This document shows, in pieces, positions 24,289 through 39,389 of a stretch of 57,200 bases of DNA. The notes under the pieces are model-generated. The model was given only the letters and a program-made list of their open reading frames with translations, was not told the origin of the DNA and made no database searches. How positions within the stretch are numbered: position 1 is the stretch's first letter; the number at the start of each line of letters is the position of its first letter. The position numbers and the translations under genes are program-made. The DNA lies in the NCBI GenBank assembly GCA_019192545.1, contig JAHCMI010000062.1, positions 1-57,200 on the forward strand, given 5' to 3'. Origin of the DNA: Rivularia sp. MS3 (lineage in GTDB: Bacteria > Cyanobacteriota > Cyanobacteriia > Cyanobacteriales > Nostocaceae).

Positions 24289-24334
24289 GGGTTCCCTTAA
24301 AAGTTTTTAGAAGAAAAAACTTTTAAGGGTTCCC
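24289..24334. repeat. 15-bp perfect palindrome bounded by 8-bp direct repeats
   Basis: CCCTTAAAAGTTTTT (24294-24308) and AAAAACTTTTAAGGG (24315-24329) pair perfectly with a 6-base loop. GGGTTCCC occurs at both boundaries (24289-24296 and 24327-24334). It could be a tiny insertion with target duplication, and could also end glgB transcription from the minus strand. Confidence 0.75.
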
Positions 24335-37007: not shown

Positions 37008-37742
37008 TCAAGAATCCGAATTCAGGATATCTTGCAAATTTACTACCATTTCTGTACGCGAAGATACTTCTAATTTCCTAAACATCCGCTTCAAGGCTTG
37101 TTTGACAGAATTTTGTGTAATCCAAAGTTCTACACCTATTTGTTTATTAGTTAATCCTTTTGCTACAAGTTCGGCTATTTGAATTTCGCGGCATGTCAGG
37201 CGATCGCTCAATGATGAACTAAATATATGAGAACTTTGTCGAGCTTGCAAAGCCGCGATACTAGCTGAGAGATGAATACAGACACTGCTTAAATCGGCAA
37301 TATTTTGATAGTTAAATGCCGGAGTTTCCCCAATCCGAGCAAAATGAATCGCACCAATCAGTTTTCCTTCGCCAACTATAGGCCCGGTCATGATATGCTC
37401 GTGGTCGTAATAAGCACAACAATTTTGATAAAGTTGGGATTGCTTCCAACCACCTATAGGTAAAACCATTTCTTCATGGGCTGGTGCATGACGCTCGGTA
37501 ATATAACGAAGTACCGGGTCAACATTACGACCAACTTGAGCGTAAAGTTCGATAAAATTTTCTAAATTAGGCATACCGCGAACTTCAACTGCACTATAGG
37601 AATTATTTTCATTAAACATATAGATTCCCCAGCGCTGTACGCCAAAATGCTGGCTAATGTTATCCATAAACCGCATCCGTAGCTGATGCTCGTTTTTTGC
37701 TGTAGCTACAGCGTGAAATAAACTGTGTAAAGAATTAGTCAT
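37008..37742 (-). CDS. LuxR family regulator with GAF-like input domain
   Basis: 244 residues, ATG start. Residues about 15-165 look like a GAF domain (WGIYMFNENNSYSAVEVRGM, then GPIVGEGKLIGAIHFARIG). The C-terminal 60 residues are a LuxR helix-turn-helix: LTCREIQIAELVAKGLTNKQ and a NSVKQALKRMFRKL recognition helix. A small molecule probably binds the GAF part and controls DNA binding. Divergently placed to a DJ-1/PfpI gene (96 bp gap), which is the natural first target. The ligand is unknown. Confidence 0.9.
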   Translation of the reverse strand: MTNSLHSLFHAVATAKNEHQLRMRFMDNISQHFGVQRWGIYMFNENNSYSAVEVRGMPNLENFIELYAQVGRNVDPVLRYITERHAPAHEEMVLPIGGWKQSQLYQNCCAYYDHEHIMTGPIVGEGKLIGAIHFARIGETPAFNYQNIADLSSVCIHLSASIAALQARQSSHIFSSSLSDRLTCREIQIAELVAKGLTNKQIGVELWITQNSVKQALKRMFRKLEVSSRTEMVVNLQDILNSDS

Positions 37743-37838: not shown

Positions 37839-38537
37839 GTGACTAATCAACCTAAATATCACATTGGCTTAATTATTTACCCCGGTATGACTCAGCTTGA
37901 TATAACCGCACCGCATCAGGTATTTTCTTTTATTCCCGAAGCAAAGGTGCATATGTTATGGAAAAATTTAGAACCTGTAACTAGCACAGAAGGATTAACA
38001 ATTTTACCGACAACCACTTTCGATAAATGCCCCGAGCTAGATGTGATTTGCGTTCCCGGTGGTGGTATAGGAACCGTGGAAACAATGACAGATTCCCAAG
38101 TTTTGGAATTTTTGCAACAGCAAGCTAAAACCGCAAAATACATCACTTCTGTATGTACTGGTTCTCTGATTCTTGCTGCTGCTGGTTTGCTCAAAGGCTA
38201 TCGCGCCGGTTGTCATTGGCTATTTCGCGAATATCTAGCAATGCTCGGAGTTGAAGTTAAAAATCAAAGAGTTGTTATAGATAAGAATAGAATCACCGGT
38301 GGTGGTATAACTGCTGGGATTGATTTTGGGTTAGTGGTTGTTAGCCAACTTTGCACGGAGGAAACTGCAAAAAGAATTCAGCTTTTGTTGGAATATAACC
38401 CCGAACCTCCTTTCAATGCAGGCTCCCCGGATAATGCTGGAGATGTTTTAGTTGAGCAAATTAAACAATTTGGGCAGCCTTTACTAGAAGCGACTTTGGT
38501 ACAGACAAAAACGATAGTAGAGAATTTATCTCAATAA
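37839..38537 (+). CDS. DJ-1/PfpI family protein (isonitrile hydratase-like)
   Basis: 232 residues, GTG start. The class I glutamine amidotransferase-like fold has its nucleophile Cys in ITSVCTGSLILAAAGLL, preceded by a glycine-rich stretch (ICVPGGGIG). The GMTQLDITAPHQVF start and HWLFREYLAMLG region resemble isonitrile hydratase-type members, which have no AraC part. Possible role: detoxification of isonitriles or a chaperone/deglycase-like activity. Divergent from the LuxR gene. A terminator-like hairpin follows. Length matches isonitrile hydratases. Confidence 0.85.
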   Translation: MTNQPKYHIGLIIYPGMTQLDITAPHQVFSFIPEAKVHMLWKNLEPVTSTEGLTILPTTTFDKCPELDVICVPGGGIGTVETMTDSQVLEFLQQQAKTAKYITSVCTGSLILAAAGLLKGYRAGCHWLFREYLAMLGVEVKNQRVVIDKNRITGGGITAGIDFGLVVVSQLCTEETAKRIQLLLEYNPEPPFNAGSPDNAGDVLVEQIKQFGQPLLEATLVQTKTIVENLSQ

Positions 38538-38608: not shown

Positions 38609-38634
38609 AAAAAACTCAAGCATTTTTGCCTGAG
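38609..38634 (-). terminator. rho-independent terminator of rbp
   Basis: On the minus strand CTCAGGCA pairs with TGCTTGAG (one G-U) with an AAAA loop, then TTTTTT. It is about 80 bp past the rbp stop and faces the DJ-1 hairpin. Confidence 0.8.
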
Positions 38635-38712
38635 TAAGAATTAAATCAAATTTTTGGACTAAATTATTGACTAAGTTTAGGTAGTTTAGCTATTTAAGCT
38701 ATAAGATTAACC

Positions 38713-39012
38713 TTAGTAGCGGTTGCGGAAATTGTTATTTCTACGATTGCCTCCGAAGGAATTTCTTTCTTCTCTGGGTCTTGCCTTATTAACTTTAAGG
38801 TCGCGTCCCATCCATTCAGCACCATCAAGAGCTTCGATAGCTGCTGCTTCTTCCTCTTCTGAACTCATTTCTACAAAGCCAAACCCGCGCACTCTACCTG
38901 TTTCGCGGTCAGTAGGAATTTGAACCCGTCTTACAGAACCATATTCTGCAAAAACAGCATTCAAATTTTCCTCTGTAACGTCGTAAGAAAGGTTACCTAC
39001 GTAAATGGACAT
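38713..39012 (-). CDS. RNA-binding protein with a single RRM (cyanobacterial Rbp type)
   Basis: 99 residues. RRM fold: RNP2 IYVGNL at 3-8 and RNP1 RGFGFVEM at about 43-50, with the aromatic residues that stack on RNA. The tail is short and Arg/Asn/Gly-rich (NSFGGNRRNNNFRNRY), typical of cyanobacterial Rbp proteins, many of which are cold-induced and help mRNA folding or localisation near membranes. The 5' leader forms a strong hairpin that covers the Shine-Dalgarno sequence (listed separately), consistent with post-transcriptional control. A terminator follows. It is a single gene. Confidence 0.95.
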   Translation of the reverse strand: MSIYVGNLSYDVTEENLNAVFAEYGSVRRVQIPTDRETGRVRGFGFVEMSSEEEEAAAIEALDGAEWMGRDLKVNKARPREERNSFGGNRRNNNFRNRY

Positions 39013-39389
39013 GGATCGTCTCCGAAATCATTAGTGTGTAGAGATTTACATTTCGGAGATAAGTCTGTGGATACTTAAACAAACGCTGTCTACCGAATTC
39101 TATTCTCCTCGGTAAGTATAACATAAGGGTCAAGTTATGGGGAGATAATAAGAAAGTAAGTTTGTAACTATGAATATAAGCAGATAATATAAACAGATTT
39201 AGTATTATGGTTTCATTTTAGTAATTTTCCGAAAATAAAAAATGTTTATATTGATACTCATGCTTTTAAGTATGCAGTATTATCAAAAAACACATGAAAC
39301 CATTACCCGATTGTCAATCTGCTAACTTATTATCGCCACCATTTTGATGAATCTGATTTTTAATGAATCGAATTCGATCTAATTTAAAT
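39013..39389. other. rbp leader and promoter region
   Basis: 377 bp between rbp and the next minus-strand gene. Apart from the hairpin it is AT-rich with no gene. The rbp promoter should lie beyond the hairpin, and the leader is then probably long. Confidence 0.6.
39019..39059 (-). promoter_or_regulatory. 5'-leader hairpin that sequesters the rbp ribosome site
   Basis: On the minus strand TCTCCGAAAT (39059-39050) pairs perfectly with ATTTCGGAGA (39028-39019) around a 21-base loop. The 3' arm contains GGAGA, which lies 6 bases before the rbp ATG. Translation should be blocked unless the stem opens or re-pairs. Confidence 0.75.

Follow-up and report, generated by a model that had tools for sequence, protein, structure and literature searches.

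A Shine-Dalgarno-hiding hairpin before a Rivularia rbp gene is ancient and may form half of a conserved three-box leader switch

Introduction

Among the cold-regulated genes of cyanobacteria, the rbp genes are classic examples. Cold induction is reported for rbp1/rbpA1, and the reference list of PMC6091082 names Sato and Nakamura 1998 and Ehira 2005 as studies of the rbpA1 5′ UTR; paper titles since 1998 link this 5′ UTR to regulation. Sequence conservation within rbp 5′ UTRs, in the form of cold boxes, was noted earlier as well (Maruyama 1999; Hamano et al. 2004, as cited in PMC9333190). Because both the conservation and a role of the rbp 5′ UTR are already present in this literature, as its titles and citations indicate, the existence of a conserved leader is not in itself a new finding.

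Shine-Dalgarno (SD), anti-SD and anti-anti-SD segments make up translational riboswitches and the leaders of ribosomal-protein genes. The rbp leader described here shares the riboswitch-type three-segment logic, in which Box 3 would be the SD, Box 2 the anti-SD and Box 1 the anti-anti-SD, but unlike riboswitches it has no known ligand-binding core and no Rfam match. The cold boxes of Maruyama 1999, as they are cited, have the gene family and the 5′ UTR in common with this leader, and probably include parts of Boxes 1–3. The E. coli cspA mRNA is a cold thermosensor (PMC9947658). The cspA element is similar in that it lies in the leader of a small cold-related RNA-binding protein gene, involves structure around ribosome binding and may be acted on by the encoded protein; it differs in that the protein family is unrelated and in that the rbp leader has no predicted temperature dependence of its fold balance. 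The Synechocystis rne 5′ UTR (PMC10989929) likewise carries a U-rich stretch before a cyanobacterial RNA-metabolism gene and is subject to feedback control. That control, however, involves RNase E cleavage and premature termination, and an SD-hiding stem is absent from the passages of PMC10989929 that describe it.

Results

We analyzed a stretch of 57,200 nucleotides from Rivularia sp. MS3 (the window), in which an rbp gene lies on the minus strand:

38713..39012, minus strand: rbp gene, 99 aa (MSIYVGNLSY...), from the open reading frame listing
39010..39012, minus strand: ATG start codon of rbp, read from the sequence
38614..38635, minus strand: stem resembling an intrinsic terminator, with a T run after it, downstream of rbp, from a terminator scan

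The product contains one RRM (Pfam PF00076, RRM_1, E 9.7e-23), and the solved structures that match it best include poly(A)-binding protein, nucleolin and chloroplast 30S proteins. Its resemblance to the class description given in PMC9333190 suggests a class I-like protein. Beside rbp, a LuxR-type regulator gene (GerE; weak GAF) is divergent from a gene of the DJ-1/PfpI family (window 37008-37742 and 37839-38537).

Immediately upstream of the start codon, the leader can fold over its own SD:

39050..39059, minus strand: Box 2, the 5′ arm UCUCCGAAAU, an anti-SD arm that is complementary to Box 1 too, from the sequence and coevolution tests
39029..39049, minus strand: 21-nt loop with a conserved AAUCUCUACAC motif, from the sequence and alignment
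39019..39028, minus strand: Box 3, the 3′ arm AUUUCGGAGA with an SD-like GGAGA, 6 nt before the ATG, from the sequence and coevolution with Box 2

On the minus strand the leader runs TCTCCGAAAT, 21 nt, ATTTCGGAGA, CGATCC, ATG, and UCUCCGAAAU (39059-39050) forms a perfect 10-bp stem with AUUUCGGAGA (39028-39019). This stem, with GGAGA in a 3′ arm that ends 6 nt before the ATG, had been described in an earlier note on this DNA, and direct reading bears the description out. The stem sequence occurs once in the window and in 0 of 100 shuffles. Perfect stems this long are not rare in themselves, since the window holds 15 of at least 10 bp with loops of 3–30 nt (0–8 in six Markov shuffles), but those that cover an SD are rare: among 20,000 random leaders with matching composition, only 3 had a perfect stem whose 3′ arm spans -11 to -7 of the start codon. 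The longest of the 15 has 15 bp and a 6-nt loop and lies at 24294-24329. Folded alone, the leader shows no exceptional stability (z -0.87, and +0.68 when a longer stretch is folded), so the support for its importance is comparative rather than energetic. Rfam 15 families at gathering score gave no match on the leader, a tRNA being the only match in the window; with E up to 5, the leader region has one sub-gathering match (E 0.67), on the opposite strand.

In all predicted folds of the window leader the SD is mostly paired, with a predicted accessibility of 0.12-0.17 from 10 to 45 °C; the corresponding values in four other leaders (L023, L024, L070 and L142) are 0.000-0.009. The earlier note had suggested that the stem could be a temperature or protein-binding switch. 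The hidden SD holds up, as do the conservation and coevolution of the stem presented below, whereas opening by warmth does not, given the flat predicted accessibility. For the same reason we rejected a heat-opened RNA thermometer of the zipper type, which the position of the SD within a stem would otherwise suit: predicted accessibility in the window does not rise between 10 and 45 °C, the cold induction reported for rbp1/rbpA1 runs in the opposite direction, and we give this explanation hardly any credence. A simple hairpin would in any case act in the wrong direction for a cold-induced gene, because it is tighter in the cold. Temperature, if it acts at all, must do so through an exchange with Box 1:Box 2, a helicase, RNA decay or a protein.

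Homologues of rbp were present in 100 of the 100 related genomes searched. A leader model covering 66 positions of the 3′ leader, built from 31 leaders, matched at least 81 of 386 genomes of the phylum at E ≤0.01 in a search whose strict filters lose weak matches; these genomes belong to the window's order and to further families of its class. An RRM gene lies directly downstream in 58 of 60 matches fetched by place, which were drawn from the model matches listed, many of them weak. Because these 60 were chosen by the model, we restricted the main stem count to leaders found through the protein. With G-U counted as half, 149 of the 220 class I-like leaders found in this way had a stem score of at least 7 over the SD; among shuffled versions, 97 of 660 did. 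Other RRM leaders reached it in 21 of 69 cases and other ORFs at the same loci in 53 of 250 (a random draw from 259), the shuffles of those ORFs doing so in 30 of 250. The earlier note had named a lack of the stem in orthologous leaders as a ground for refutation; at 149 of 220, and with arms that coevolve, as a group they do not. By eye, the leader is absent from RRM genes outside Cyanobacteriia and from some inside too. Judged by these comparisons, the leader belongs to class I-like rbp genes across Cyanobacteriia.

Five RRM genes are present in the genome from which the window comes. Besides the window's gene, two of them have the leader, namely L003 (E 4e-5) and L002 (E 0.24), and the leaders of both belonged to the 31-sequence training set of the model. 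At the other two, L004 and L005, the leader model gave no match. Further model matches in this genome (L038-L040, E 1.1-3.9) are weak and were taken as chance.

Covariation between the two arms, which the earlier note had suggested looking for across orthologous leaders, is pronounced. We used a swap test across 114 leaders less than 85% identical: each Box 2 was paired in turn with the last 30 nt of the same leader and with those of other leaders, the duplex energies were compared, and relatedness was controlled for by running all 28 pairs of eight leader segments. Box 2 and the 3′ arm of the same leader formed the stronger duplex (-13.6 versus -12.0 kcal/mol swapped; z -8.5; 0 of 2000 permutations). 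This is the strongest of the 28 segment pairs, 18 of the 27 others having z above 0. Compared with the arm of the nearest protein relative, the own arm was better in 71 cases and worse in 43. The values for p1_3:Box 2 (z -2.9) and Box 2:loop (z -1.9) were set aside because the segments overlap.

The same pairing is evident position by position. The ten stem positions pair in 127 to 188 of 195 anchored leaders, fewest at the loop end, and 97.6% of stem cells are paired in the 31-leader alignment versus 29-75% when the arms are slid. Within that alignment, changes on both sides occur in only one of eight stem pairs, in two paralogues of the window's genome. Inspection by eye located a change from A-U to G-C inside the stem of L003, a change from C-G to U-A in L193/L194, and stems extended outward in L340 and L372 (ACAUCUCC/GGAGAUGU) and in L374 (CAUCUCC/GGAGAUG). 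The three extended stems, with ACAUCUCC/GGAGAUGU or one pair less, come from a Phormidium, a Leptolyngbyaceae MAG and a Nodosilinea. As far as aligned leaders can tell, compensating change maintains the SD stem in orthologues. The SD-hiding hairpin before rbp is real and ancient.

We then placed the leader relative to transcription, for which the window offers two candidate features:

39108, minus strand: expected transcription start, giving a 5′ UTR of ~96 nt, by homology to Nodularia start sites
39115..39120, minus strand: TATACT, candidate -10 hexamer, read from the sequence

Table 2 of PMC3610870 gives Nodularia spumigena start sites for rbpA2 (1911567) and rbpA1 (5407423), which rank 2 and 3 of 50 by reads. 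Since these ranks were obtained under standard conditions, both transcripts are abundant without cold. Mapped onto genome G349, apparently N. spumigena, the start sites precede Box 1 by 11-12 nt, the 5′ UTRs measure 121 and 123 nt, and Box 1 begins at nucleotide 12 or 13. The whole leader, stem included, is thus within the mapped mRNA in Nodularia, and by homology it would be so in the window. A start downstream of 39059, which the earlier note had named as fatal to its proposal, is at odds with the position expected from Nodularia. The consensus promoter scan listed another site only, not the TATACT at 39115..39120.

A rival explanation is that the leader governs mRNA decay. RNase E would cut the U-rich linker, hairpins or ribosomes would protect it, and transcripts would accumulate in the cold. 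The title of Ehira et al. 2005 assigns the 5′ UTR a role in rbpA1 transcript accumulation at low temperature, and Synechocystis RNase E cleaves a U-rich stretch of its own 5′ UTR, according to the passages on it in PMC10989929. Decay alone, however, does not predict the observed coevolution of Box 2 with the SD arm, and we consider this explanation unlikely.

Close to the expected mRNA 5′ end, the leader carries a second potential partner for Box 2, along with a possible inner helix:

39093..39097, minus strand: Box 1, UUCGG, which nearly repeats the SD arm, sits close to the mRNA 5′ end and can pair with CCGAA of Box 2, from conservation and correlated change
39079..39084, minus strand: GUUUGU, conserved, possible partner of ACAGAC, from alignments and the predicted fold
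39063..39068, minus strand: ACAGAC, possible partner of GUUUGU in an inner helix compatible with both folds, from the predicted fold

A near-copy of one hairpin arm at the start of the message may compete with that arm for its partner, which makes the leader look like a switch. All 30 leaders of one alignment, mostly from close relatives, have UUCGG, and the Box 1 region, AAUUCGGYGA, resembles Box 3 (AUUUCGGAGA) and is complementary to Box 2. Between the Box 1 core (UCGG) and the Box 2 core (CCGA), the four positions pair in 186-188 of 195 leaders; beyond this 4-bp core, an outer fifth pair is present in 138 of 195 and a pair on the opposite side in 6 of 195.

To avoid circularity, we located both boxes in 208 leaders by their flanks, with the cores masked. 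Both cores were kept (UCGG and CCGR) in 184 leaders; only Box 2 was changed in 5, only Box 1 in 6 (at least one of them, L121, is misplaced and shows TTCGG), and both were changed in 13. The two cores therefore change together (Fisher 1.3e-12, uncorrected for the tree), with one clade supplying 3 of the 13 and one genome 2. By eye, the complement is restored as UUGG:CCAA in L101 (family f8) and L126 (f1) and as UUCAG:CUGAA in L109 (f36). L401 (f44) has UUG:CAA, 3 bp that lie a few nucleotides off the expected register, where its sisters L353/L365 have UCG:CGA, and L224 (f2) has UUCAG with a CUGAA partner displaced by an insertion. Complementarity is thereby restored in five families, and partly in L246. 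A restored complement is absent from seven of the 13 both-changed leaders by eye (L082, L083, L091, L191, L195, L215 and L244). The Box 2 change in L294 is uncompensated, leaving a C-A mismatch, and L344 has a G-U wobble.

One clade (L078, L082, L083 and L091, from genomes G238, G013, G435 and G197) has a Box 2 without its CCG, reading CUCAGAGAAA or CUGAGAGAAA, and retains the loop, the SD arm and the rbp gene. Box 1 differs among its members, which have UUCGG, UUUGG, UUCAG and UUGAG.

Duplex energies gave a graded answer. With 11-nt windows, Box 1 against Box 2 scored z -3.6 (3 of 3000), with wider segments -2.0 or -1.8, and among the 19 leaders whose Box 2 core is other than CCGA, -1.8. Against the nearest relative's box the own pairing had no advantage, being better in 37 cases and worse in 53. 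Because this control was negative and z was weaker in wider segments, the Box 1:Box 2 pairing is, on these comparative data, likely but not proven. It is newly recognized here: the earlier note had neither Box 1 nor an alternative fold, and the literature searched, whose scope lay outside the key rbp leader papers, contains no structural account of the stem or of Box 1:Box 2 pairing.

One competitor to a switch is a plain SD-sequestering hairpin, which would impose constant low translation or be opened by a helicase or the ribosome, with Box 1 conserved for mRNA 5′-end stability or as a promoter-proximal signal. Such a hairpin would explain why the support for Box 2:Box 3 far exceeds that for any other pairing and why Box 1:Box 2 fails the nearest-relative control, and the start site does adjoin Box 1. 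Yet the Box 1 and Box 2 cores covary, complementarity is restored in five families, and a promoter signal would not track changes in Box 2. We regard a hairpin of this kind as distinctly unlikely to be the whole explanation.

Other pairings were less convincing. The GUUUGU:ACARAC inner helix was not significant in a swap test on the surrounding segments (z -1.2). The window fold also made it attractive to pair the 5′ GAGA with UCUC of the loop, but this pairing proved worse in cis than swapped (z +2.8) and is not supported.

When either pairing was enforced on the window leader, the Box 1:Box 2 fold was favored by 0.3, 1.0, 1.0 and 0.6 kcal/mol at 10, 20, 30 and 38 °C, so that the predicted balance between Box 1:Box 2 and Box 2:Box 3 has no temperature trend from 10 to 38 °C. 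Across 186 leaders with intact cores, in which the last TCGG was taken as Box 1 without individual checking, the median preference was ~3 kcal/mol for Box 2:Box 3; in 52 of these leaders Box 1:Box 2 was equal or better at 20 °C.

The linker between Box 1 and Box 2 (window 39060-39092) contains a tandem GUAUUnACARRCUU-like repeat in many long-form leaders, for example L024 and L142. The window's genus has a single copy, and its 5′ UTR is ~25 nt shorter than that of Nodularia. A protein-operated leader would make use of such features: Rbp or another RRM protein, bound to the U-rich linker or the loop, would close or open the SD stem in an autoregulatory manner. The U-rich linker itself, the two repeat copies seen by eye in many relatives, the conserved AAUCUCUACAC of the loop, for which no partner is supported, and the RRM gene that follows 58 of the 60 place-fetched model matches all point this way. 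In vitro RNA capture is also reported for Rbp1 and Rbp2 (PMC9333190, in a section that does not mention their own leaders). The single motif copy in the window's genus argues against it. We consider protein operation possible, if somewhat doubtful, and compatible with a switch.

Discussion

We propose that class I-like rbp genes share a conserved cis-acting leader, probably a two-state, anti-anti-SD switch, whose OFF half is the hairpin. In the OFF state, Box 2 (UCUCCGAAAU) would pair with Box 3 (AUUUCGGAGA) and hide the SD. For these two arms the pairing potential, the placement over the SD, the conservation and the coevolution are all observed; with the SD hidden, translation would start poorly. 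In the ON state, Box 1, ~12 nt from the mRNA 5′ end and a weaker copy of Box 3, would take Box 2 away, perhaps assisted by the predicted inner GUUUGU:ACARAC helix, and with Box 2 captured by Box 1 the SD would be released from the hairpin. Correlated and compensating changes go part of the way toward this exchange, and in the cell the two folds would be expected to alternate. Since RNA polymerase completes Box 1 and Box 2 ahead of Box 3, the first of the two folds to appear on the nascent RNA would be Box 1:Box 2. Cold, Rbp on the U-rich linker, or early ribosomes could then slow refolding or hold the leader open, and so would favor translation.

More tentatively, such a bistable leader could be common to class I rbp genes across Cyanobacteriia, with a 5′-terminal decoy, Box 1, competing with Box 3 for Box 2, and with transcription speed, cold, or Rbp on the U-rich linker as the readout. 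It would then represent an undescribed class-wide switch of RRM proteins, which we find quite conceivable though short of probable. The three-box model makes definite predictions for one- and two-base changes, and these are open to reporter tests. If it is true, cyanobacteria would have a native translational switch present on more than one rbp gene of a genome (on three in that of the window), and these copies can be compared with one another.

Leader elements also occur in other arrangements. Two copies without an rbp gene after them, L153:2049-2114 (G033) and L154:2108-2176 (G055), adjoin related small ORFs of 62 and 69 aa (...YKQTGKYLPP...), lying downstream of one and directly upstream of the other; neither ORF has a Pfam match. 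In two other cases rbp genes lie in tandem, ~730 bp apart for L072/L073 and ~910 bp apart for L076/L077, each gene having a leader of its own.
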